This document shows, piece by piece, positions 3,395-41,534 of a stretch of DNA of 64,000 nt. A program made the position numbers and the translations under genes. Each line of letters begins with the position of its first letter. Positions within the stretch are counted from its first letter, which is position 1. Below the pieces are notes generated by a model, which was not told the DNA's origin, searched no databases, and saw nothing but the letters and a program-made list of their open reading frames with translations. Source of the stretch: Vulcanisaeta souniana JCM 11219 (GTDB lineage: Archaea; Thermoproteota; Thermoprotei; Thermoproteales; Thermocladiaceae); assembly GCF_026000775.1 (NCBI RefSeq), contig NZ_AP026830.1:891056-955055 (forward strand), written 5' to 3'.

Positions 3395-3925
3395 GTGGAG
3401 GTTGGTTACTTAGATTATAAGAGGGATCCCGTGGCGCATGTGTATGCCAAGGTCCTTGATGACTTGGTTGAGGCTAGGTTGGCATTGGAGATGCTGGGCA
3501 GGGACCTTATCCAAAACGCCTCGGCTAAGGCGTTCATGAGTGTTAAGTCCATAGTCAGCGCGTTGGTTGTTAAGAATTTTGCCAAAATCATTGAAGGGGT
3601 GGATGAGAGGAGGAGGACTTGGTATGAGGACGCGGGTTACTCAGCACCAACCACTGGGTTAATAGGTATTTCTAAGGACTTGAAGAAACTGGGTATAGAC
3701 GTAGAGGCTGCGGTAAAGACGACGTTGTTGCTTCATAGGTTCTCCTATAATGGCTTCGACCCAAACTTAGTCGATTATAGGGACCCTGACGAGGTTAAGG
3801 ACGACATTATTGAGGTTATTAGTTGGGCCTTAACAATTAAGGAGTTATTCAGGGACATTTGGGATGAGAGGTTGGAGCAGGAGGAACATGAGTTGATGAA
3901 GTTGCTTGAAAGATTCAAGGCTTAA
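3395..3925 (+). CDS. PaREP1 family protein
   Basis: This 176-residue helical protein shows the PaREP1 pattern: a start-proximal LDDLVEARLALEMLGR helix, NASAKAFMSVKS, and the late LLHRFSYNGFDP block. PaREP1/PaREP8 proteins are abundant in Thermoproteales, have a HEPN-like fold and no settled function. The likely start is the GTG at 3395. It lies 21 bp downstream of the fused HEPN-MNT gene on the same strand, suggesting co-transcription. A second, frameshifted family member is at 25538-26064. Confidence 0.75.
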   Translation: MEVGYLDYKRDPVAHVYAKVLDDLVEARLALEMLGRDLIQNASAKAFMSVKSIVSALVVKNFAKIIEGVDERRRTWYEDAGYSAPTTGLIGISKDLKKLGIDVEAAVKTTLLLHRFSYNGFDPNLVDYRDPDEVKDDIIEVISWALTIKELFRDIWDERLEQEEHELMKLLERFKA

Positions 3926-3933
3926 TGGATTTT

Positions 3934-3953
3934 TGAGATATAATTATTTCTCA
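3934..3953. repeat. 20-bp near-palindrome upstream of vapB
   Basis: The sequence TGAGATATAATTATTTCTCA matches its own reverse complement at 18 of 20 positions. It lies 41 bp before the vapB ATG at 3995 and 8 bp after the PaREP1 stop. It could be an operator for the AbrB-type antitoxin or a transcript end; nothing decides between these. Confidence 0.35.
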
Positions 3954-3994
3954 GAAATATTCATAAGCTTAGATCATTTAATAATAATTAAGGT

Positions 3995-4255
3995 ATGTTG
4001 GAGGTTAGAGTCAGGGTTTCTAAAAAGAATACAATTTACATACCTAAGGCAATTTCTGAGGCTGTGGGCATTTCTGAGGGTGATTATGTCATTTTGAGAG
4101 TTGATGGTAATAGGATAATTATTGAACGTGTTGAGGACCCGTTTGAATATGCTTTGAAGGTTAAAAAGTTCGCTGAGGTAACCTTTGAGGAATTCGAAAG
4201 GGAATCTGAGGAGGTACAGGATGAGTATTGGAGTGAGGCCTCGGATACTTCTTGA
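3995..4255 (+). CDS. vapB: VapB-type AbrB antitoxin
   Basis: The 86-residue protein begins with an AbrB/SpoVT swapped-hairpin domain (residues 1-48: SKKNTIYIPKAISEAVGISE, then GDYVILRV) followed by a charged helical tail that would wrap a PIN toxin. It should bind its own promoter and neutralise the VapC encoded by the overlapping gene. That toxin is cut off after about 48 residues here, leaving this an orphan antitoxin. Confidence 0.72.
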   Translation: MLEVRVRVSKKNTIYIPKAISEAVGISEGDYVILRVDGNRIIIERVEDPFEYALKVKKFAEVTFEEFERESEEVQDEYWSEASDTS

Positions 4256-4367
4256 TACAACTTATCTCCTACCCATCGTGGGTATTAACGTTAAGGGTCT
4301 AGATGAGGTACTAATTGCACTATCAAGGGTAAGAAGGAGGTTTAAGACTGAGTTCTGTTACACGTAA
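4221..4367 (+). pseudogene. vapC: VapC PIN-domain toxin, N-terminal fragment
   Basis: The ATG at 4221 lies inside vapB, as usual for vapBC pairs. The first residues match a PIN domain (RILLDTTYLLPIVGI, with the first catalytic Asp), but the frame stops after 48 residues where a PIN toxin normally has about 130. The remaining acidic residues are absent, so RNase activity is not expected. The next gene on the other strand begins its 3' end only 47 bp later, so the toxin body has been deleted. Confidence 0.65.
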
Positions 4368-4413
4368 TATGGTATTAGATAATTCGTAGGAACTCCCGCG
4401 ATTATAGCAATGA

Positions 4414-4779
4414 CTACGCGGTGGCTGTTACGAACAGCATATAGTACTCGGTCTTCTCAATCCTACCGGTTACTGGGTCAACCCTGAGCCCTAGGGTCTC
4501 CAGGGTATCAACACCGATCACCGGCATTGCACCACTAAACGCCAATATCCTAATCGGGCCCCTCCTACCTTCAATCTCGGCCTCGGCAATGAACACCCTA
4601 GCCCTCACCGTTCTGCCATCACCCAGCCTAACCTCAACCTCAAATGGAGTCTCTATGAAGTGCTCCTTGGCCAATTCTAGGGGCATTACGGTGAAGGAGG
4701 CGCCGGTATCCACGAGTACCCTCTCCATGGCAAACTCATCACTCCCTCTAAAGCGAACGCTAACAAAGACGTGACCCAT
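4414..4779 (-). CDS. Retropepsin-like (clan AA) aspartic protease
   Basis: A 121-residue single-domain protein with the aspartic protease signature LVDTGASFTVMP (residues 22-33), a flap-like middle region and a GVDTLETLGLRVDP segment near the C-terminus. Prokaryotic proteins of this size act as homodimers that supply one Asp each; their substrates are unknown. It is monocistronic. A decayed homolog with Asp-Ile-Gly in place of Asp-Thr-Gly is at 11304-11664. Confidence 0.7.
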   Translation of the reverse strand: MGHVFVSVRFRGSDEFAMERVLVDTGASFTVMPLELAKEHFIETPFEVEVRLGDGRTVRARVFIAEAEIEGRRGPIRILAFSGAMPVIGVDTLETLGLRVDPVTGRIEKTEYYMLFVTATA

Positions 4780-4822
4780 TTACCACGCTAATTCATATCA
4801 TGGCAGACCTAAAAATAAAGCT

Positions 4823-5890
4823 TTAGTAATTTGGAACGTTCAGTCTCATGGCAGCCTCCCTATACGTTGGGTCTAGAAATTCGTAATTCTCAATGATACT
4901 TAACCTCTCCAGGGTCTTTATCACATTGTTCAGCGATGTCGGCGATACCGTCGTGCCCTCGAAATCTTCCACGCACTTAACCACCTTGGACCATGTATTA
5001 CCACCACTGGCGACGCACCTAAGCACCAGCGCCGTCCTCCTGGCATTAACGGTTGAGTAACTCGCCTTAGCCCTTATGAGTCTCTCAAGCTCGTTCAGCG
5101 CCTCCCTAATCATTGATAAATCCCTAACGCCCCCTAATGTAGGCGTTGGCGGCATAAACAAGCCAACCAGGTATACCGTTAAACACATCCGCAATGGTCT
5201 CAATAACGTCTGTGGTAACCTCGACACCCAACTCCTTAAATCCTCTCCATAGGAAGTCGATGGATTCATCACGGGTGAACCTACCAATCCTCACCTCATA
5301 GAAGTACCTGCCGAACAATGGTGAATTTGGATCTTCAACGCTCATGAATTCATAGAGCAACCCAACCTCAGAGCCGCTGAGTATGAATGTTACATTCCTA
5401 TCGAAGTCATACGCGTGAGCTAGGGCATTAAGAACCTCACTTGACAACGGACCCCTCAGTCTCTGGGCCTCGTCAAACGCCATTACAACCCTCCTCTCAT
5501 TAAGTTCATTGAATAACCCGGCCAGGCTAACCTGTTCCCTACCCCTCCACCTGACCTCAATGGCGTTGCCCATGATCGAGACACCCCTAATCCTCCTTAA
5601 GACATAAATTAGCTTGTCAAGAGCTGATAATGAGACATTAAATATTAATCGATGTAGGTCAGACATACCATAGTTGCCCCTCAATGATCTGCAATCAATA
5701 CATATGGCGTCTCTGCCTCATTCGGCGACACATTAACTAATGACGTCTTATCAATCCTCCTAATTCCGTAAACCGTGATTATTCTATCACCCCCGTGTAT
5801 ACTATTCCTTAAATTCATTAAGTTCGGTCTCCCTATCGTAAAGGCCTTCTCTAGTTGCCTTGGGCTTTACACTGAATAATATGGCTAACT
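4823..5890 (-). pseudogene. Archaeal AAA ATPase, multiply broken
   Basis: Pieces in several minus-strand frames line up as one crenarchaeal ATPase of the PF01637 type. From the 5' end they are LFSVKPKATREGLYDRETEL, then RIITVYGIRRIDKTSLV (a P-loop whose usual GKT glycine is Asp), then 5684-5124 with Walker B VVMAFDEAQ and sensor FILSGSE, then the winged-helix tail in 5120-4823. Stops and frame changes occur near 5815, 5700 and at the five-G run 5130-5134. Nucleotide binding would be lost even if the frames were repaired. These ATPases are common mobile genes of unknown role in hyperthermophilic archaea. Confidence 0.65.
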
Positions 5891-6052
5891 CTCTCATTAG
5901 TTGCTAACCCCGGATTTGCTATTAATCCTTAGGAAACATTAGCACACGGTAATAAGTAATGCAATTGAACACAATGCACTAATCCATTGGTTAAGGGCTG
6001 AATCCTTTTTCATGTTAATAGAAACCTTTTTTGTATTTAAGTATGTTAAAAT
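5891..6052. other. AT-rich intergenic stretch
   Basis: It lies between the broken ATPase and the TnpB-type relic. No convincing coding frame is seen. T-rich runs (6007-6040) precede the relic. Confidence 0.4.
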
Positions 6053-6254
6053 TTGTTGATAAATGATGATCTCTCACGCCTATGTGGGCTATGCCCAAGG
6101 GGGAGTGAAAATTCCAGAGACGTGAGCCCCGTGCCGTTAGGCTCGAAGGAGTCCCATGACCCACCTACCGTAAAACTGGGTAGGTGGTTGAGGGCTAAGT
6201 CCCTACACTCGATCATGAATGAACACAAAATGAATGAAATGAAAGTGTAGGGAC
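6053..6254 (+). mobile_element. IS200/IS605 3'-end relic (TnpB tail/guide-RNA region)
   Basis: The plus frame 6053-6250 reads like the variable tail that follows the zinc finger of archaeal TnpB proteins (PPTVKLGRWLRAKSL), but no nuclease body precedes it. The DNA is strongly foldable: CTCACG/CGTGAG, CCACCTACC (6161-6169) with GGTAGGTGG (6179-6187), and a perfect 11-bp inverted repeat GTCCCTACACT (6199-6209)/AGTGTAGGGAC (6244-6254). In IS200/IS605 elements this region carries the right end and the omega RNA scaffold. I infer a truncated element or a non-autonomous derivative. Confidence 0.45.
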
Positions 6255-6356
6255 AAACGGTAACGAGTACGTGTCCAGTTTATGAGGGAAGGCTTGATTA
6301 AATTCAGGATTGTTCATTGCCCAGCATGCAATAGTATTGAATCGAATACTATGTAC

Positions 6357-6740
6357 TCAGGACTTAAGTTTATGGTAGAGGTCTAGCAGTTCATCGTCAA
6401 ATGTAATTAATGGTAAGCCTAATCTTCTTGCCGTGCTAAGCACTATCAAGTCGTTAAAGTCATCATAATGCCTAATGTAATCTTTATGATCAATAGCAAA
6501 GTATATATCCTGCACATTATTTTCAACAACCTTAATCTTAGAGTCCCGTAGAATCTCACTTATGATACCCACATCAATTTTATGCCTAATGAAGAAGTAA
6601 CTTAACTCGGCAATTACAATTATTGGCACGTAAGCTTCATTTAGGGAATCCCAAAGACTTACTGCCTTATCATGGCTCACATCATCCTCGGAGATCACAG
6701 CCACTATAAAGTTTGTATCAACTACAAAGCTCATAATCAC
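6357..6740 (-). CDS. vapC: VapC-type PIN-domain toxin
   Basis: A complete 127-residue PIN domain. It has the first Asp in FVVDTNFIVAV, a conserved Glu in IAELSYF and late acidic residues in HYDDFNDLIVLSTA. VapC toxins are Mg2+-dependent ribonucleases, usually cutting tRNA or rRNA. The start (GTG at 6740 or ATG at 6734) overlaps the vapB stop, so the pair is coupled. All catalytic positions seem intact, so this is probably a working module. Confidence 0.8.
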   Translation of the reverse strand: MIMSFVVDTNFIVAVISEDDVSHDKAVSLWDSLNEAYVPIIVIAELSYFFIRHKIDVGIISEILRDSKIKVVENNVQDIYFAIDHKDYIRHYDDFNDLIVLSTARRLGLPLITFDDELLDLYHKLKS

Positions 6741-6967
6741 TCCTTCTCAATCTCTTCCCTTATGGTCTCCTCAACATACCTCCAATCTATTTTTTTCCCC
6801 AACCTAATCCTTATTTCCGTGATGCTTCGTCTCTTTGGCTCAAGAATTATCCTCTCACCCTCAAGCCTAACTATGAGCGTATCCCCAACCCTTAAACCAA
6901 GCCTTTTCCTAATAGACGCCGGTATCGTTATTTGATAATTCCTAGTTACCTTAGTTTCATCAATCAT
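6737..6967 (-). CDS. vapB: VapB-type AbrB antitoxin
   Basis: The 76-residue protein has an AbrB domain (TRNYQITIPASIRKRLGLRVGD, then EGERIILEP) and a helical C-terminus that should block the PIN active site of the coupled VapC. A perfect 12-bp palindrome lies directly against its start codon and is a natural autoregulatory operator. Upstream TATA-like bases lie near 6990-7000. Confidence 0.8.
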   Translation of the reverse strand: MIDETKVTRNYQITIPASIRKRLGLRVGDTLIVRLEGERIILEPKRRSITEIRIRLGKKIDWRYVEETIREEIEKE

Positions 6968-6979
6968 ACTAGATCTAGT
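6968..6979. promoter_or_regulatory. 12-bp palindrome ACTAGATCTAGT, probable vapBC operator
   Basis: A perfect palindrome sits immediately upstream of the vapB ATG (6967), where the leaderless transcript would start. AbrB-type antitoxins bind such symmetric sites as dimers. A half-similar ACTAGACTAA follows at 6982. The function is inferred from position. Confidence 0.45.
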
Positions 6980-7061
6980 AACTAGACTAACTTTAGTATT
7001 TTAGTCTTACCTCGTAAACACAAACCTCATTACGCATTAATACACATAGTTGCTGACAACA

Positions 7062-7226
7062 TCAGCAGGGTTCCTGAGAACCAGATACCATGTTCGTTAT
7101 TAACATCGTGATCAAATAAATCAAGGTATACAATACTCCTGTGATCTTAAGCCCTTGAAACCTACCAGGGTACGCATACACCCAGAGTATGGTAAGTACG
7201 TAATGTACCAACGGACCTATTAACAC
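7062..7226 (-). CDS. Small hydrophobic peptide or membrane-protein remnant
   Basis: From a GTG at 7226 the minus strand encodes about 54 residues with two hydrophobic stretches (VLIGPLVHYVLTILWVY and VLYTLIYLITMLI). No family is recognised, and adjacent frames are full of stops. It may be the surviving part of a lost membrane protein. The rest of 6980-7327 shows nothing clear. Confidence 0.22.
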   Translation of the reverse strand: MLIGPLVHYVLTILWVYAYPGRFQGLKITGVLYTLIYLITMLITNMVSGSQEPC

Positions 7227-7327
7227 TAGATATTATGAGGATGATGAAATCCGTATAACCATCGTACTTAGGCCCAGGTTGACTAAAATGACCTACGTGA
7301 CCATGGCAACATGGCATTGAATTATCC

Positions 7328-8071
7328 CTACCCCTGACTGAGCATCTCACTGACTATTTTCTCTATCGACTTAATCAGCCTCTTATCCGCGCCACCGCTG
7401 CCTAGGGAGTTTATGAAGGAATTCAGGACCTCAAGGTCTACTCCGTATCTACCGTAGTAACTTGGTAGGTAATGAAGGACTATATTATCATCATACCTAA
7501 GCACCTGGAGAACCTTCATGAGTTTCAGGAAGTCTATTGAACCGTCAAATATTGGCAGACCAAAGTAACCGCTCTTCTTATTGCTAAAGTATATTGCCTT
7601 AACATAACCGCTTAACTCAACAAACCTCCTAATGAAGTCTCTCAAGCCCCTCTCCCTGGCTACATGGATGGCTAGGTTAAGCCTGTGTGGTGAGACCTCA
7701 TTAGCGAACTCAATTACTTCACTGGTGTTTGCCAAGTAATTACCAACTCCGAACTCCCAAATAATCCTAACACCATATGTTGATGCCTCATCAAGTATCT
7801 CAGCTAGGGTATTAACGTCGTTGATACCAGGCCTCGCCGTCATGGAGTCCACGTTCAGATAATCAAGTAACGAAATGAACCTCTCAGCATCGCCTCTCCT
7901 CCTTAGGTGACCAACCCTAACCTGGTTGACCCTAAGTCCGAGATCCTCAAGCTCCACGGCAAGGGCTGGCAGGAACTCATTAAGCCTGGGAAACCCCCCA
8001 ATGTCAAGTTCCACTTGTGCGTTCAATCTAGGTAAATCCCTAATTGGCCTAACGCTAATCAGTAAGTCCAC
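7328..8071 (-). CDS. TIM-barrel (xylose isomerase/AP endonuclease-like) protein
   Basis: A protein of about 247 residues with repeating beta-alpha units (VNQVRVGHLRRRG, ARPGINDVNTLAEIL, VRIIWEFGVGNYLA, VKAIYFSNKKSG, IVLHYLPSYYG) as in the sugar isomerase/endonuclease IV-like barrel superfamily. Metal ligands cannot be assigned with confidence, so the reaction is unknown. I prefer the GTG at 8071 as the start, because a TATA-like AATTAAAAAAC lies 25 nt upstream at 8091-8101. Confidence 0.5.
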   Translation of the reverse strand: MDLLISVRPIRDLPRLNAQVELDIGGFPRLNEFLPALAVELEDLGLRVNQVRVGHLRRRGDAERFISLLDYLNVDSMTARPGINDVNTLAEILDEASTYGVRIIWEFGVGNYLANTSEVIEFANEVSPHRLNLAIHVARERGLRDFIRRFVELSGYVKAIYFSNKKSGYFGLPIFDGSIDFLKLMKVLQVLRYDDNIVLHYLPSYYGRYGVDLEVLNSFINSLGSGGADKRLIKSIEKIVSEMLSQG

Positions 8072-8162
8072 AATGGTCAATAGTCGGACTAATTAAAAAA
8101 CTATTGTCAACGGGCAAGGGACCAAGTTTTTTAAACCCATGTAGATTATTACTTGATTTACC

Positions 8163-8531
8163 ATGGGCGTTGACGAGGAGAGGGAGAGGATAAGGATAAA
8201 AATAATGATGGAATTAATGAGCAAGGCCCAGCAGAAGGCAAGCACTAGGCAGGATTTGACGCGCGACGATGTGATTAGGTTGATTAGGCAAATAACGAGG
8301 GGCGACAGGGCGGAGGAAATAATAAACAATGCGCTTCAGTTATATGGCGACACGGCAGTCCAGGTGTTCAGGCAATTAGTGGAACTACACCTAAGTGGTA
8401 GATTAAGTGAGCTTCAGGACTATGAACTATACCAAGTACTCGAGAGAGTTGGGCTCCATGTTCCAATAAGGACCAGGATAAGGATTGTAAGGCATGGTAA
8501 GGAGGAAAACATAGGCTCATCCGATGAGTAA
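8163..8531 (+). CDS. PDCD5-family DNA-binding protein
   Basis: A 122-residue, very basic and helical protein with the PDCD5/TFAR19 layout: a charged N-terminal helix (EERERIRIKIMMELM), a three-helix core around QVFRQLVELHLSGRLSELQDYELYQVLERV, and a basic tail (RTRIRIVRHGK). Archaeal members bind DNA and are widely conserved; the cellular role is not settled. A TTTTTTAAACCC box at 8126-8137 is about 31 nt before the ATG. Confidence 0.78.
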   Translation: MGVDEERERIRIKIMMELMSKAQQKASTRQDLTRDDVIRLIRQITRGDRAEEIINNALQLYGDTAVQVFRQLVELHLSGRLSELQDYELYQVLERVGLHVPIRTRIRIVRHGKEENIGSSDE

Positions 8532-8695
8532 ACACACGAAAACCAATCAGCCGCATTCCCGTTAACCTCAGGAATACCTCAATGGTGAAAACAATAATCG
8601 CCATACTATACATAGTTTAAACCACTGTAAAGCCTGAGCCAATACAATCTATCCCTAATACCTTGAGACAAGGCTAAGTAATGCAACGGTGCGCA

Positions 8696-9286
8696 TTACC
8701 TCATGCGAAGCTTCATTACTATGTAGATCACTATCACAATCACAGCAATAACCGCAATAATATACAGATACCTATCAACTAGGCCTATTATGATTGACCA
8801 CTGAGTTGCGAACGCATAACCAATGTATACCAGGATTGAATCCCATATCAAATGCCCAAGGAACGTTACAACTACGAAGCCCACAATCCTCATACCAGCC
8901 AGACCCGCTGGAAAGGATATCAACGCCCTAAAGCCAGGCAGGAACCTAAAGCCAAACACCGCCGCTGCACCGTACTTACTAAACCACCTACTCAATGAAC
9001 CAAGCCTATTCTTATCAAGGCCAAATAACCTACCGTACCTAAGCAGGAATGGTGTGCCTAGGTAATAGGCTGTGTAGTAATCAATTAATGACCCAACGAG
9101 ACTACCAAGTGTACCAAGCAATAAACCAAGGACGGGGTCTATGAACCCCAGCGACGCGTAATAACCAACCAAGGGCATAACGACCTCACTGGGCACAGGT
9201 AATGAAACACCCTCAAGAACCATTAAAGCAAATACCAAGGCATAGCCGTATAGTCCCTTAAACACGTACCCAAGCATCATCAACAA
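8696..9286 (-). CDS. DedA-family membrane protein
   Basis: A 196-residue polytopic protein with DedA/VTT hallmarks: EGVSLPVPSEVVMPLVGY, a re-entrant glycine-rich stretch (LGTLGSLVGSLIDYYTAYYLG), and KYGAAAVFGFRFLPGFRALI followed by SFPAGLAGM. DedA proteins move polyprenyl or other phospholipids between membrane leaflets in bacteria; the archaeal substrate is unproven. A cluster of start codons at 9286-9277 leaves the exact N-terminus open. Confidence 0.85.
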   Translation of the reverse strand: MLMMLGYVFKGLYGYALVFALMVLEGVSLPVPSEVVMPLVGYYASLGFIDPVLGLLLGTLGSLVGSLIDYYTAYYLGTPFLLRYGRLFGLDKNRLGSLSRWFSKYGAAAVFGFRFLPGFRALISFPAGLAGMRIVGFVVVTFLGHLIWDSILVYIGYAFATQWSIIIGLVDRYLYIIAVIAVIVIVIYIVMKLRMR

Positions 9287-9398
9287 GGTTTGGCAAGACC
9301 CTAATAAGGGTTGTGCGGAATGTGCTGGGTGTTATTCAAACGTACAAAGTTCCAGTTAATCCAACGAGGCATTTTCACGGGAAACCCCTATTTGTAGC

Positions 9399-20310: not shown

Positions 20311-20754
20311 TTAGGTTGGTGATACATACTCAGTTATATGCTTCACGTATTGGTTATTACCTAGCGACCTCACTAGTGCCTCATCCGCGGTGTACATGAT
20401 CGTGCCGAGCCTCATGGCGAGGTCCACATATACGGCATCGTATATCGATATGCCGTACTTAATGGATAACTCACTTGCACTGATTATGGATTCCCACGTA
20501 ATGCCATATATACTTAATAGACTATCCCTCAGTAAGTTTAATGCCCTCCTTAAGTAATCCTCACTTATTAACCCACGCAGGTAATACTTCCTCAGAGCAC
20601 TAGCCACTTCGGCAATTGCTATTGATGGAACAACGACTGTGATACGACCATTGAGGTGGCCAATACGTATCTTCTCGGCATAATCACTATAATCCTCCTT
20701 AATAACCCACTTAACAATGACACTGGCATCACACACGATCTGCCTACCTGGCAT
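20311..20754 (-). CDS. vapC: VapC-type PIN-domain toxin
   Basis: A 147-residue PIN protein with the first Asp in IVCDASVIVKWVIKED, a Glu in IAIAEVASAL, and the late pair in GISIYDAVYVDLAMRLG plus MYTADEALV. All four acidic positions of the nuclease site are visible. It overlaps the end of the RHH antitoxin gene by 11 bp. It is a probable sequence- or tRNA-specific ribonuclease, silenced by its partner. Confidence 0.8.
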   Translation of the reverse strand: MPGRQIVCDASVIVKWVIKEDYSDYAEKIRIGHLNGRITVVVPSIAIAEVASALRKYYLRGLISEDYLRRALNLLRDSLLSIYGITWESIISASELSIKYGISIYDAVYVDLAMRLGTIMYTADEALVRSLGNNQYVKHITEYVSPT

Positions 20755-22432: not shown

Positions 22433-24070
22433 TTATCCTAACCAGCAGCTTGTTGTGTAGTAGAAGCCGTTGCTTGAGCTCCAGCCCGAGGCGGCTGGCG
22501 GGACTATGTACGCGCCGGAGCTATAGGAGGTCATTGCGACATTCGAATTAACCCAAACGTCCCAGTTTATGTCGTATGCTATGTGCTCAACCAAGGTGCC
22601 GCTTATTGGTATGAAGCCGAGTAGGTAATACGTGCACCCGTTCGTCTCATTAACAACGACTGAGGAGCCGGCGGGTATTGTGTATGCCGAAGACTGCGGA
22701 TTATAGGCAGGGCCCATGTATGTATAGCCCTCGCTCTCAACCCCATATATCTGCTCCTGCTCCGCATATTGCGTACTCTGCGGTGTAAAGACCCAGGTCT
22801 GATTATATGCGGATGGTCCCAATGGCGTAACCGCAGCTGGTTGACCATACAATGATATTGTATATTCTGGGCAGGAATAAGTCGTGCTAACGGAATTAGA
22901 AACCGTAATGCCCGTACCCGAGGTTGAGAAACCGGTAGCTAGGCTGATGCCGTACGATGTTGATTGCGTACATGTCTGTGCATGTGGGTCAGCACCGGCT
23001 GTGTTTGTCCAGTAGCCTGGTTCGTAGCCTCCACCACTTCCTGCTATAAACTCAACGTCCCCAGGTAATTGTGATGCGCTTATGTAGCCCATCTCATACT
23101 CATAGACCACGTATGATGCCAAGGCGTCCTGGAAGGACTTAAGATACTCAATCTGAGTGCCGGAGAACGGTGAATAAGCAATGTAATTATAGAGCTCGGC
23201 ATAGCCAGCCGAGTATCCATTATAATCATTATAGACAAGTACCGACCACGATAGGCAAAAGTCAACTACGAAGTTGCCAAGTGAATCCTCGTAGGATTGC
23301 TGACCATAGACAATTGCATACGCGGTACTACTGATTTGGGATGGCTGTTTAGTAGCCGATACGGACAGCTCCGCGCATAAATCGTCTGATGGGTCTGGTG
23401 TTGGTGTTTTTGTTATTATTGGTGTCCAGAACTTGCTTGCTATGTTTAGTGCCGCACTTAATGAGTGCGGTCCTATCACTAGTACTTTGTTGTTTCCGTA
23501 GGCAATCACATAGTCTAGGCCGTTTAGGTACTTGGGCACTGGTATTGCGATGATGCTCGTGTTGTAAGCCCTCGACCACGCAACAGCCAAAACCAACTCA
23601 ATAACCGACACCTCACTCGCATTACCGTGGATGACCACGAAGTCACCACGCTTAATTAACTCCCTGATTAGTTTGAAGTTTGTTGAGTTCACGTTCACGT
23701 GGACCAAGCCACTCACATTCGTGATCAAGCCAGGCCCAATTACAGACCAATCAATGACAACTAAGCTATTACCGGGCAAACTAGGCAACTCATTAACCGT
23801 CACAGGCTTGATCAGTGATTGATTAATGCCAGCACTAACCAGTCTCTGAACAAGCGTTGATGGGCCGACTACGTAGATTGGAATGTTCAGGCTAATTGGC
23901 AAACCAACAACGCCCTGGTTTGCCGTGGAGAATCCACTGGTTTTTGTATTACCAACCTTCACACCATGACTAACGAAGATCCTCGGCGGGGCAAGGAGTA
24001 CTGAGGCAACAACCACCACAATAACCACGGCAGTTATTAACAAGAGCCTCGATCTAGAACCCATAACCAT
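22433..24070 (-). CDS. Large anchored surface protein (paralog A)
   Basis: About 545 residues: an N-terminal signal anchor (SRSRLLLITAVVIVVVVASV), an alpha/beta domain (LPISLNIPIYVVGPSTLVQR, INQSLIKPVTVNEL, LVVIDWSVIG), and a long Ser/Thr/Tyr/Gly-rich beta domain with cysteines and N-glycosylation sites. The first 200 residues are clearly homologous to paralog B at 39840-41534; the rest has diverged. The frame is open to 24151, but the conserved upstream element at 24093-24114 shows the real start is the ATG at 24070 or 24064. Function unknown. Confidence 0.72.
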   Translation of the reverse strand: MVMGSRSRLLLITAVVIVVVVASVLLAPPRIFVSHGVKVGNTKTSGFSTANQGVVGLPISLNIPIYVVGPSTLVQRLVSAGINQSLIKPVTVNELPSLPGNSLVVIDWSVIGPGLITNVSGLVHVNVNSTNFKLIRELIKRGDFVVIHGNASEVSVIELVLAVAWSRAYNTSIIAIPVPKYLNGLDYVIAYGNNKVLVIGPHSLSAALNIASKFWTPIITKTPTPDPSDDLCAELSVSATKQPSQISSTAYAIVYGQQSYEDSLGNFVVDFCLSWSVLVYNDYNGYSAGYAELYNYIAYSPFSGTQIEYLKSFQDALASYVVYEYEMGYISASQLPGDVEFIAGSGGGYEPGYWTNTAGADPHAQTCTQSTSYGISLATGFSTSGTGITVSNSVSTTYSCPEYTISLYGQPAAVTPLGPSAYNQTWVFTPQSTQYAEQEQIYGVESEGYTYMGPAYNPQSSAYTIPAGSSVVVNETNGCTYYLLGFIPISGTLVEHIAYDINWDVWVNSNVAMTSYSSGAYIVPPAASGWSSSNGFYYTTSCWLG

Positions 24071-24092: not shown

Positions 24093-24114
24093 TTTTTTTT
24101 ACTTCGGGTGTTCA
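24093..24114 (-). promoter_or_regulatory. Conserved upstream element of surface paralog A
   Basis: On the minus strand this reads TGAACACCCGAAGTAAAAAA plus two further A residues, ending 23 nt before the ATG at 24070. The same 20 bases occur at the same distance from the start of paralog B (39797-39818). The A-tract lies at the TATA position; the GC-containing half lies where a BRE or an activator site would be. Confidence 0.62.
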
Positions 24115-24458
24115 CAAAAAGTGAGTCGAGCAAAATAGAAAGCAACCCCACCTTACCATGACGTGATGCATAGCCCTGACTCCGTGCACTGCGTGGCTTA
24201 AATTAGTATGTGTCGCTTGTGGCCGTTATTGATTATTGCCTGTGGTCGCTGGATAATAGCCGCTTTACTTTATAGGCCCTGGCTCGGCATACGTGTTGGT
24301 TGGCATACGTAATGTTCATTAGTATTGCATAGCGGTGCGTGGTTCTTAGCTAGAAATGGATATAAATGCTGTGGATTTTATTGGCTTGTGTGAAGATGAC
24401 CGCCATAACTGATGACGAGTGATGAGGAACTTGGGTTCTCGATGAGTAGTGCCCTAAC
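24115..24458. other. Intergenic stretch with an orphan promoter
   Basis: A TATA-like GGATATAAATGC at 24357-24368 is followed 26 nt later by GTGAAGATGACC (plus strand), but that frame stops after 10 codons. It may mark the start of a lost gene. A nine-base direct repeat GGCATACGT occurs near 24283 and 24302. Nothing else is convincing. Confidence 0.3.
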
Positions 24459-36600: not shown

Positions 36601-38424
36601 ATGAGAAGGTCAATCAGTGGCTTAGTGGTTTACCTTGGTATTGCGGCGTATATCGTAGTGATGTCGTATTATACATTGCTGAAGTACCTAACATTTCACA
36701 CCCACGCTGCGGACCTCGGGATATTCGCCCAGGCATTGGCGTCAACGCTGTATTACCACAGGCTGTTTTATGAGAGTGTTGATGTGGCGATAATACCCAA
36801 GCCCGGGCCCATAGGCTATAGTTTCCTAGACGTTCACTTCTCACCAACGTTATTCCTATTCCTACCCGTGTACGCCGTATACCCAAGTCCAGTTACCCTT
36901 CTAGTGGTTCAGACCGTGATTGTTGCCCTAGGTGCACTACCAATTTACTGGCTTGGTAAGCACTTGGATAGGGAATGGCTTGGTGTCTTCTTCGCAATTA
37001 TTTACCTACTTAACCCACTGGTGCAGGGTGCGAATTCCTTCGACTTTCACATGGAGACCATATTCATGCCTCTGTCGCTATACGCAACATACCTATTAAT
37101 AACGAGGAAATGGAAGATTTATTACCCAGTATTACTGCTCGCTCTGGGCACAATTGAATTTGCACCAATACCTCTCATGCTTCTTGGTCTTTATTACGTG
37201 CTGGTTAATGTGAGGAAAAAACGTGAATTAATGCATGGATTGGTTACTATTGCCTTGTCGATAATAATGCTGCTATTGGCTTTATGGATAAAGTCAGTAC
37301 TCAATCCAGTGGGTCCCACTACAGTGTCGCCATTGTCTGGGTTACCTGAGCAGTACGCATCCTCATTCAGTTTCGGCATACTAGTCTCAGTTATTAAAAA
37401 CCCGTCCTTAATACCAAGTCTCTACTCAGTGAATGGTACGGAGAAGTTCCTTTACTTCCTAGAGCTTTACGCGCCGACTGCCTTTACGGCCTTCCTAGAC
37501 CCATTGGTACTCCCGTCACTTGCATGGCCTCTGGCCTCCTTCCTAACAAGTGATGTAATTTATTATAACCCGTTCTTTCAATACAGCTCCTTCTCAATAC
37601 CCTTCATAATCATAGCGTCGCTGATGGCGTCATCGAAGATCCCCATAGATCAGATGAAGAGATTAATGGTATTAATACTCATATCGACCCTAATCGTATT
37701 CCTAGGTGTAGATCCACTCATACACTTTCAATACAAATTAACGGGTACTGATCACAAAATATGGAATGCACTAGGGTTAATACCCGACAATACAACGGTG
37801 CTTGTTCAGAACAATCTATATCCACCATTCTCAAACGACATAAATGCCTACACACAGTGGTACCCATGGCTAAAACCAGAATACATAGTGGCCCAACCAA
37901 ATAACCCGTGGTTCACCTGGTGGGGCACGCCATACAATGAGTACGTGAATGCCGCATTACAGGAGGGATACAGCGTATACATTACCATTGGTAACTCACT
38001 ACTCGTCTTAAGGGCAAATTACACGGGAAAACCAATAATCTGCGTACCAATTACCGTAAGTATGATACCCGGAAGTATAACCATAATAAATGGCTTATTA
38101 AGCAATAACAAGATTATACATACTCCAAGTGAGCCGCCTGGTACCTGGTTTGTGGCCAGCATTGAATTACCGCCAGGCCAATACAATATAACAATGTTAT
38201 ACTCATGGAGTGGACCCGAATACTTGAGGCAGCTAAACACTACATTAGCATACATAAGGGTTAACCAATATACAATAAACTTAACTACAGAAGAGAACAC
38301 AACATCATTAGTACTGTGGAATAACTATTACGGAGACGTCACGATAACAGCGTACGTTAATTATGTGGTGAATACGACAATATACATGAATCAAATAATA
38401 ATCACTGGGCCAACATGTAACTAG
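36601..38424 (+). CDS. DUF2079-family membrane protein
   Basis: A 607-residue protein with about nine membrane spans in the first 370 residues and a large polar C-terminal domain. The N-terminal HTHAADLGIFAQALAST, the DVHFSPTLFLFLP loop and SFDFHMETIFMPLS match the DUF2079 family, which looks like GT-C-type enzymes with acidic and histidine residues in the first extracellular loops. A lipid-linked sugar transferase role is possible but unproven. Its stop overlaps the convergent AbrB gene by 4 bp. Confidence 0.7.
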   Translation: MRRSISGLVVYLGIAAYIVVMSYYTLLKYLTFHTHAADLGIFAQALASTLYYHRLFYESVDVAIIPKPGPIGYSFLDVHFSPTLFLFLPVYAVYPSPVTLLVVQTVIVALGALPIYWLGKHLDREWLGVFFAIIYLLNPLVQGANSFDFHMETIFMPLSLYATYLLITRKWKIYYPVLLLALGTIEFAPIPLMLLGLYYVLVNVRKKRELMHGLVTIALSIIMLLLALWIKSVLNPVGPTTVSPLSGLPEQYASSFSFGILVSVIKNPSLIPSLYSVNGTEKFLYFLELYAPTAFTAFLDPLVLPSLAWPLASFLTSDVIYYNPFFQYSSFSIPFIIIASLMASSKIPIDQMKRLMVLILISTLIVFLGVDPLIHFQYKLTGTDHKIWNALGLIPDNTTVLVQNNLYPPFSNDINAYTQWYPWLKPEYIVAQPNNPWFTWWGTPYNEYVNAALQEGYSVYITIGNSLLVLRANYTGKPIICVPITVSMIPGSITIINGLLSNNKIIHTPSEPPGTWFVASIELPPGQYNITMLYSWSGPEYLRQLNTTLAYIRVNQYTINLTTEENTTSLVLWNNYYGDVTITAYVNYVVNTTIYMNQIIITGPTCN

Positions 38425-38747
38425 GAGAACCTAAAGGGCTTTATTTCTATTATCTCAATCTCATCACCAGGCCTAATCCCATAGGTCTCCCTAACCTTCC
38501 TAGGAACAGTAAACTGCCTAGAATCCGTATGCCTAGTCCTCAGCAACTTAACGCCCTTAACCGTAATTGGAATCCCATTGTACGAAACCGTGATGACAGC
38601 ATACTTAAGTCCAGAAATACCCAAAGCCCTAACTAGACTTGCGGGAATCAGAACCTGGTTATTCAGGTAAACCCTAACCTTATACGGTAATTTAGTAACT
38701 CCATAACCCGGCGCGCCACGCCCCTGCCTCAACTCCTGCCCATGCAT
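38421..38747 (-). CDS. Tandem AbrB/SpoVT-type DNA-binding protein
   Basis: The 108-residue protein has two swapped-hairpin units in a row: YKVRVYLNNQVLIPASLVRA with ALGIS, and SRQFTVPRKVRETYGIRPGD with EIEIIEIKP. Two units in one chain can make the barrel that normally needs a dimer. It probably regulates transcription. No toxin gene is adjacent. A TTTTTTATAC box at about 38770-38780 suits the ATG at 38747. A dead paralog is at 2095-2330. Confidence 0.68.
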   Translation of the reverse strand: MHGQELRQGRGAPGYGVTKLPYKVRVYLNNQVLIPASLVRALGISGLKYAVITVSYNGIPITVKGVKLLRTRHTDSRQFTVPRKVRETYGIRPGDEIEIIEIKPFRFS

Positions 38748-39365: not shown

Positions 39366-39796
39366 GGGGTTGAATCCCAATCTAGGGTTTTAAGCATTTC
39401 TCATGGAGAATCGCTTAACCGCATTGACGCAATGCCTTACTAACGAGCCACCCAACCTCATTCCACTAATGCCTTTGTAACCTATCCGCACCGGGCAGAG
39501 ATTGAGGAAGGCATTACTCAAAAGGTACCCGCAGAGTACGGTCGTGATATATTACAGAACCAAGGGGCTCGCCAGGTCGACCCAGGTGATGCGCCGTGGG
39601 CTCATTACATGTAGTTAACCATAGTTTATGGGCATACCGTTGTTACGGCAGCACTACAATCCCATGCAAGGATCCGTAACCCGGTGAGTATTCATTACGA
39701 GTGCGTAGCTTAGGGCCGGTATTGGCTCATTCACGTACCCGCAGTTCAACGACCATGAACTTAATGCACATTCAACCCCACTCGAGCTACTTTCTC
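39366..39796. other. Gene-free stretch between tRNA-Thr and surface paralog B
   Basis: Only short, interrupted frames are seen, for example one around 39491-39617 reading LRKALLKRYPQSTVVIYYRT. It could be debris of a lost gene, but no family is recognised. No copy of the tRNA 3' end was found here, so there is no sign of an attachment site. Confidence 0.3.
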
Positions 39797-39818
39797 TGAA
39801 CACCCGAAGTAAAAAAAT
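39797..39818 (+). promoter_or_regulatory. Conserved upstream element of surface paralog B
   Basis: TGAACACCCGAAGTAAAAAA followed by AT ends 22 nt before the ATG at 39840. It matches the element at 24093-24114 base for base over 20 positions and at the same distance, whereas the bases on both sides have diverged. Confidence 0.62.
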
Positions 39819-39839: not shown

Positions 39840-41534
39840 ATGGGTATGGGTTCTGGGTCTAGGCTTTTGTTCATAGCCGCCGTGATCATCGCCGCTGTAG
39901 TTGCTACCTCAGTACTCGTTGCTTTACCGACGCCTTTAACTAACCATGGCGCCGTGGTTAGACCTAACGATGTTGTGAGCAATAAATTCGCAGACGCTAA
40001 CCAGGGTATTGTTAGTTTTCCAACGAGTCTTAACATGCCAATCTATGTCGTTGGCCTGCAAACATTAGCTCAAAAATTGATTAATATCGGCATTAATCAG
40101 TCGCTGATTAAGCCCGTGGGCCTTGATCAATTAGTGAGTCTACCAAACAACAGTGTTGTCGTTATTGATTGGTCCTTAATTAAGTCTAGCATTATTTCCA
40201 GTGGCCCATTGGGCAGGATAACCGTTAACCTAACGAGTCCGGTGATTCATGATTTAGCCATCGCCATTGCTAGGAACGACATAATCGGCATTTATGCGAA
40301 CGGTAGTGATGAGGGTGTCATCGAGTTCGTGCTAGCCTATTCATGGGCGGTGGCCACGAGCCATAAATTATTGCTCAACATAAATGAGCCAAGTAATGAC
40401 TACCTACTAGCCTACCCAATAATACCGGTGAGTAGGCATGAACCTGTGGTAATCGTGGTGAGGTGGGTTAAGCCATGGGGACTAATAATAGGGCCAGTGT
40501 ACCTAAGTCAATTAACAACGGTTATGGTAAACATGATGAGACCGACTACAACAGCGACAACAGTAAGTAGCAACGTAGACCCAGTGCAAGGCGAGGATCC
40601 ATGCTACGAGGGATACTCCGTCGAATTTAGCAGTGCCTCAAGTCCATCATCCGGTGTGTATGTGACGGGCACTACCACGTTTATATGGGCGGCACCAATG
40701 CTTTATTCAGGTTGGTACCAGTACGGCATACCGGGTTATTCTGACGGAAACGGCACGTATTACTGGGATACATGCTTATTGGCATCTAACGAAATCTTTG
40801 GTAGTGCACCACCATCAGTCCCCATAAACGTTATCGGTTATGAAGCATATTTAGAGAGTCCTACGATGTATGATAACGGTGGTCTTGAGGGTTACCAGGT
40901 GGGTGCCATTGATTACTACACTGGCTATCAGATGTATAAGGAAGGCAAAGTCAGCACATTTGTCGGCGATGGAGGTCCTACTCAATGGATTCCACAATCA
41001 ACAAGTAGCACGTCTAGTTACGAAATATACTTTGGCTTAGAGGTAGCAGGGCAGGAATTAATTCCGTTTATCGGGATTGGTATATCGTTACCTGCTGGTA
41101 CTAGCGAGATGATTTCCCTTTCTCAAAATCCAGGATATAGCACAAGCCTACCCAACGTACCCACTATAATACTGTCCAACATCACGTGGACATTCAGTGT
41201 AGGTGCCAGCGGTAGCTATGCGACATTCCCAAATGCTTTTGAGGACATATCACCAGCCAGCATATACTTACCGAGTTTATCCACGGAAAGCTATGCGGCA
41301 TTTCCGGTAGACTTTGAGAATAATGCAGTAACCTCCTGGGTATACTGTGCCCACTTTACTTACCAGACCATTTGGGTTAATGCCTGGTGGGTTATCGATG
41401 TTGTACCTTCATCAAGCAGTACTGTGGATCTTTCAAACACAGCCGCATACTGGAACCTTGCAAATGCACCACCTAGCTCTTACGTAAGTGGAGTATCGTC
41501 AGGCATAGTTTATACACCATGCACATATTCATAG
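39840..41534 (+). CDS. Large anchored surface protein (paralog B)
   Basis: About 564 residues with a signal anchor (SRLLFIAAVIIAAVVATSVL), an N-terminal domain homologous to paralog A (FPTSLNMPIYVVGLQTLAQK, INQSLIKPVGLDQL, VVVIDWSLI) and a long Ser/Tyr/Gly-rich exported part with few cysteines and many NxT/S sites. It probably stands on the cell surface. The shared element upstream supports ATG 39840 or 39846 as start rather than TTG 39837. Function unknown. Confidence 0.72.
   Translation: MGMGSGSRLLFIAAVIIAAVVATSVLVALPTPLTNHGAVVRPNDVVSNKFADANQGIVSFPTSLNMPIYVVGLQTLAQKLINIGINQSLIKPVGLDQLVSLPNNSVVVIDWSLIKSSIISSGPLGRITVNLTSPVIHDLAIAIARNDIIGIYANGSDEGVIEFVLAYSWAVATSHKLLLNINEPSNDYLLAYPIIPVSRHEPVVIVVRWVKPWGLIIGPVYLSQLTTVMVNMMRPTTTATTVSSNVDPVQGEDPCYEGYSVEFSSASSPSSGVYVTGTTTFIWAAPMLYSGWYQYGIPGYSDGNGTYYWDTCLLASNEIFGSAPPSVPINVIGYEAYLESPTMYDNGGLEGYQVGAIDYYTGYQMYKEGKVSTFVGDGGPTQWIPQSTSSTSSYEIYFGLEVAGQELIPFIGIGISLPAGTSEMISLSQNPGYSTSLPNVPTIILSNITWTFSVGASGSYATFPNAFEDISPASIYLPSLSTESYAAFPVDFENNAVTSWVYCAHFTYQTIWVNAWWVIDVVPSSSSTVDLSNTAAYWNLANAPPSSYVSGVSSGIVYTPCTYS

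Follow-up and report, generated by a model that had tools for sequence, protein, structure and literature searches.

A 47-bp promoter-like element precedes unrelated exported-protein genes across the archaeal genus Vulcanisaeta

The 64,000-nt stretch of the Vulcanisaeta souniana genome analysed here (the window) carries two distant genes for exported proteins of one group (family A), which are 35% identical to each other, and each gene is preceded by the same exact 20-mer, TGAACACCCGAAGTAAAAAA (Table 1). The end of the 20-mer lies 24 nt (ATG at 24070) and 23 nt (ATG at 39840) from the first ATG, and its T is followed by an A-tract of 8 nt in copy 1 and 7 nt in copy 2. With up to three mismatches, the 20-mer is expected 0.01 times in the window, and two copies arose in none of 100 shuffles; both occurrences originally noted, one per strand, are thus real, although their end coordinates had been drawn 2 nt beyond those of the 20-mer. 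The host genome is a single contig of 2,432,148 bp, throughout which TGAACACCCGAAGTAAAAAA occurs exactly in two places, both inside the window; five more genome sites resemble it at one to three mismatches, and the reversed 20-mer, used as a control, has none. The surrounding non-coding bases had been described as different, which holds for the spacer preceding the ATG and for sequence beyond about 40 bp 5' of the A-tract, but not for the 20-25 bases just 5' of the 20-mer, which are also conserved (CTCGAnTCACTTT). The window further encodes, at 20311-20754 (-) and 38421-38747 (-), a protein with a PIN domain and one that resembles MazE/AbrB-type antitoxins, which lie a few kb from the two surface genes and are possible toxin-antitoxin parts.

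Table 1. Window copies of the element with their genes, and the 17 sites in the host genome (G000)
Feature	Position	Strand	Basis or remark
Window coordinates
Element copy 1 (full 47 bp)	24093..24139	(-)	model R1 match, E=1.0e-14; G000:C1:915148-915194
Exact 20-mer TGAACACCCGAAGTAAAAAA, copy 1	24095..24114	(-)	sequence match
TCACTTTTTGTGA, TCAC-N5-GTGA inverted repeat in copy 1	24112..24124	(-)	sequence
CCGAAGT, copy 1, BRE position	24101..24107	(-)	directly 5' of A-tract; putative role
A-tract AAAAAAAA, TATA-box position, copy 1	24093..24100	(-)	start 30 nt before ATG
Element copy 2 (full 47 bp)	39771..39817	(+)	model R1 match, E=1.6e-13; G000:C1:930826-930872
Exact 20-mer TGAACACCCGAAGTAAAAAA, copy 2	39797..39816	(+)	sequence match
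CCGAAGT, copy 2, BRE position	39804..39810	(+)	putative role
A-tract AAAAAAA, TATA-box position, copy 2	39811..39817	(+)	start 29 nt before ATG
Gene 1, exported family A protein, 545 aa	22433..24070	(-)	N-terminal membrane anchor; start MVMGSRSRLLL
Gene 2, exported family A protein, 564 aa	39840..41534	(+)	N-terminal membrane anchor; start MGMGSGSRLLF
Genome coordinates
Sites before family A intact genes	261694, 265372, 342687, 915194, 930826, 970484, 1896112		model matches
Site before family B intact gene	2096872		model match
Sites before family D intact genes	290203, 816398, 2229047		model matches
Site before orphan intact gene, 319 aa	984444		model match
Site before frame-disrupted family D relative	381433		71% identity over 573 aa
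Family A relic (L110)	192654-192698		element joined to last ~30-40 codons, apparently by deletion
Family A relic (L113)	1960188-1960214		element joined to last ~30-40 codons, apparently by deletion
Sites without recognisable gene	848644, 2376425		model matches

The 20-mer belongs to a longer element, of which it is the core. An alignment of 39 distinct copies, found via search patterns in this genome and those of genus mates, runs without gaps across about 47 conserved columns and yields the consensus TTCAAYCCYRCTCGAnTCACTTTYTnTGAACASCCGAAGTWAAAAAA, so the shared element is real but measures about 47 bp rather than 20. Its first nine columns are less conserved than the remainder, a few further sites carry 1-nt indels, and outside the block most columns are at or near background, apart from slight conservation close to the start codon. 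Because the distal part (5' of TCACTTT) was absent from the search patterns, its conservation constitutes independent evidence. The string CTCGANTCACTTT occurs exactly eight times in the 2.43-Mb genome, each time within a known element copy. Permutation tests of internal symmetry were non-significant except for one 10-bp inverted repeat, which was equalled in 2 of 60 permutations, uncorrected; this repeat aside, a palindromic or direct-repeat operator was rejected on these tests, and column counts show the TCAC-N5-GTGA of copy 1 reduced to TCA-N7-TGA in most copies.

The proximal end of the element, CCGAAGT followed by WAAAAAA, occupies the BRE and TATA positions expected for a leaderless mRNA, and the remaining ~33 bp are located 5' of the BRE, which they abut at the constant spacing given by the gap-free alignment. 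From the A-rich end, where the TATA box would start, the distance to the ATG is mostly 27-33 nt (49 copies). A TATA box at this distance from the ATG fits a transcription start at or near the ATG, and it is from this position that we infer promoter use and leaderless mRNA. Two earlier proposals are thereby upheld, namely that the A-tract sits at the TATA position, from which the spacing to the ATG is 29-30 nt in the window, and that the conserved block is longer than a BRE, extending ~33 bp beyond the BRE/TATA part.

Many of the genes concerned also begin alike: 40 of 71 element-controlled genes, including those starting at 24070 and 39840 in the window, open with ATG-NNN-ATG (MxM, usually MxMG), a start that is common to unrelated families and could reflect cassette descent or a feature of translation start.

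A sequence-only model built from 36 copies, with own-genome matches counted at E<0.12, finds 17 sites in the host genome, 12 of them before intact genes, three before broken or truncated genes and two without a recognisable gene. All 12 intact genes encode proteins with an N-terminal membrane anchor, and the element stands before all seven intact family A genes and all four family D unit heads. Counting every copy examined, an N-terminal membrane segment is encoded by 70 of the 71 open reading frames downstream, compared with 9 of 63 in the window; the lone exception is a frameshifted copy. BLAST comparison of the downstream proteins, after removal of their first 45 residues, separates at least nine groups that show no mutual similarity. 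Those genes that can be recognised at the matches are thus unlinked, non-homologous exported-protein genes or their relics, and no element-like sequence was seen before the other window genes with intergenic starts. The well-scoring sites of the genome scan are all promoter-like or decayed relics, which bears out the expectation of a link to surface-protein genes, but these genes represent at least nine unrelated exported families and not the single paralogous family first envisaged.

Searches of the downstream proteins against Pfam, NCBIfam and PDB sequences gave no convincing match, and the gene 1 protein has no match in Pfam. A structure of the gene 2 product predicted from a two-sequence alignment has a mean pLDDT of 39, with moderate confidence in the anchor helix and an alpha/beta region (residues 66-235) alone, and a fold search of the PDB with it was empty at E<=0.001. 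One element-controlled protein of genome G004 (L129:1044-2642 (-)) carries the residues NWAGY...AYWVGLDPP, which by eye recall peptidase family G1, and has no match in Pfam or PDB sequence searches.

Three complete Vulcanisaeta genomes contain 17 (the host), 16 (G004) and 18 (G008) model matches, and the element is present at high confidence in 9 of 12 genomes of the genus. The sister genus (g4) has one strong copy in G014 and another in G020 that is weaker but correctly placed. Conservation spans about nine species-level genomes and partly also the sister genus. The element is absent from the congener G011 (99% complete), from genus g2 and, beyond the family, from every one of 56 genomes of the class. 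G011 and g2 nevertheless have family A genes that lack the element, as do several in G004, which argues that the element is lineage-specific wiring rather than an intrinsic part of the gene; those of G011 and g2 indicate that regulation through the element and membership of the protein family need not go together. Viral mimicry was rejected, with no exact match of TGAACASCCGRAGTWAAAAA among 2.9 million viral contigs.

Comparison between families gives 73% identity for the element and 26.8% for the 64 nt upstream of it, against 26.1% for shuffled sequence. Since identity in the flanks is no more than random, the whole region cannot have been duplicated, an event that would have undermined the idea of a common regulator. 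Where the 20-nt ATG-adjacent spacer is less than 30% identical, as in 306 cross-family pairs, element identity still stands at 70%, and it is nearly flat across spacer-identity bins; such identity beside a diverged spacer points to selection and not to shared recent descent. These pairs largely refute the idea of descent alone, in which a 5' segment of promoter, spacer and leader codons was copied by recombination and has not diverged, with no common regulator; retention of the element in those nine or so species-level genomes and partly in the sister genus also speaks against it, and we regard it as unlikely. What does favour copying is that some cross-family pairs share the spacer and the first ~15 codons (family A L128 and family D L126, both in G004; family A L005 and family B L004 in the host; family A L150 and family C L151), with the similarity gone by about codon 25, and that the S5/S6 pair of the host is alike in promoter and N-terminus and different in body. 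Promoter and leader therefore seem to move together now and then, as a 5' cassette, from one surface gene to another, a process that adds to selection on the element and cannot replace it. Two convergent family A genes of the host (L010, G000:C1:256000-270000; 5765-7336 (+) and 7657-9306 (-)) have promoter and N-terminus in common but differ in body, which suggests ectopic conversion between surface genes.

Cassette sharing, the many broken copies and the two deletion relics (192654 and 1960188), in which the element is joined to a family A 3' end, would also suit a homology block or recombination site that swaps promoter-leader cassettes as a diversification device, the promoter role being secondary. 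The fixed placement of the element at the core-promoter position makes this quite unlikely, as does the finding, contrary to frequent exchange, that most intact copies have no common spacers. Nor is the element readily reduced to a strong standard core promoter of BRE and TATA with an incidental remainder. The proximal 14 bp do match these positions, and at sites 984416 and 2229021 essentially the proximal half alone remains; however, conservation extends over 25 or more columns farther upstream, the other window genes with intergenic starts have no such sequence, and a promoter of this kind would also precede housekeeping genes, of which none was found, so that this explanation is highly improbable.

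We conclude that the element is probably (at about 0.78) the promoter, comprising operator and core, of a genus-level surface-protein regulon. An upstream operator of ~33 bp, TTCAAYCCYRCTCGAnTCACTTTYTnTGAACAS, would be fused without variable spacing to the BRE CCGAAGT, and an A-rich TATA box, WAAAAAAA, would drive leaderless transcription of exported, membrane-anchored surface-protein genes. Our best mechanistic guess is that a sequence-specific activator sits on the operator directly 5' of the BRE, over CTCGANTCACTTT...TGAACA, and, in the manner of characterised archaeal activators, recruits TFB and/or TBP to the non-canonical A-rich core promoter, which would result in joint expression of all these surface proteins. 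Archaeal activators typically bind 5' of the BRE (PMC5512572, PMC5937170); we infer activation rather than repression, with which the arrangement would also be compatible. The two distant window genes would share a switch because both use the 47-base promoter that V. souniana, a hot-spring archaeon, and closely related species place before many unrelated exported proteins, and the sequence evidence points to one control system for a changing set of surface proteins. More tentatively, the 47-bp operator-promoter, the spacer and ~15-25 signal-anchor codons may form a transferable 5' cassette that was recombined onto unrelated extracellular-protein genes in Vulcanisaeta, placing each at once under common, dedicated control read by an undescribed factor.

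The regulator was not found, and the one candidate examined, a divergent TFB paralogue (274 aa, G000:251905-252726), failed on co-occurrence. It would read the element as an alternative BRE factor, is present in all element-rich Vulcanisaeta genomes, where it adjoins a T2SSE ATPase gene, and has an altered C-terminal helix-turn-helix sequence. A profile search, however, also detected it in G011, G010 and genus g3, all of them element-free, and missed it in G014 and G020, the sister-genus genomes that carry the element, and a TFB leaves the far-upstream conservation of the element unexplained; this very unlikely candidate is therefore not claimed. An apparent co-occurrence of 9/9 versus 0/3 in a TFIIB Pfam search, contradicted by the profile of this TFB, was a detection-threshold artefact, and TFIIB gene counts, at two to three in nearly all genomes, show no correlation with the element. 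The TFB locus (L256, G000:C1:246000-262000, 3526-6727 (-); homologues L257-L264) encodes a protein with a shortened linker region and lies directly 5' of a type II/IV secretion ATPase (PF00437) and a membrane-protein gene, an order kept across Vulcanisaeta. The pairing of TFB and ATPase also occurs in genus g3, the TFB of L257 has as its neighbour a gene with a match to RNA polymerase subunit G (RpbG), and the region upstream of the operon has a conserved CACTGGACTTATTA; a comparable TFB/ATPase operon exists in Pyrobaculum-Thermoproteus (PMC4858521).

Several known archaeal promoters share parts of this architecture. The ups and UV-inducible promoters of Sulfolobus acidocaldarius carry a 6-bp A(N)TTTC hexamer at -39 to -44 relative to the TSS (PMC5817253), a non-palindromic motif 5' of the BRE that, as here, is common to many promoters, including those of pilus genes. 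The Vulcanisaeta element likewise includes ACTTTC or ACTTTT, but this ACTTTY lies within a 47-bp block about 46-51 nt before the ATG, its final C is T in most copies, and the genes are those of orphan exported proteins in a different taxonomic order. At the TFB-RF1 (PF1088) promoters of Thermococcales, a 13-bp palindrome, TCTGAANTTCAGA, precedes a weak BRE in two operons (PMC5937170). There, too, the operator stands at a fixed distance just 5' of BRE/TATA, where the activator recruits TFB; in contrast, neither the motif columns nor the symmetry test reveal such a palindrome in the Vulcanisaeta block, which is long, without clear symmetry and present at many scattered genes. EarA sites in the fla promoter of Methanococcus maripaludis are repeated 6-bp sites in one operon (PMC5512572), where the operator abuts the BRE of an A-rich core promoter and controls a surface-structure gene set, unlike the single long element here, which recurs at twelve or more loci in a genome. 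The ara-box of Sulfolobus, whose factor is unidentified, is an upstream box that also adjoins the BRE but is shorter and serves a metabolic regulon (PMC5512572, PMC5817253). The element thus resembles archaeal operator-BRE-TATA promoters, yet is longer, lacks clear symmetry and serves unrelated orphan surface genes. Our literature search found no paper on the 47-bp motif, and element and regulon are previously undescribed as far as the searched literature shows.

To our knowledge, few regulons and regulators of the Thermoproteales are known. The present work yields a nearly complete list of targets that can be tested in cultivated type strains, provides a sequence tag for orphan surface proteins that protein databases leave unnamed, and offers the 47-bp element as bait with which the regulator might be isolated. 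If the idea of a cassette is true, it would also show how archaea put new surface proteins under existing control.
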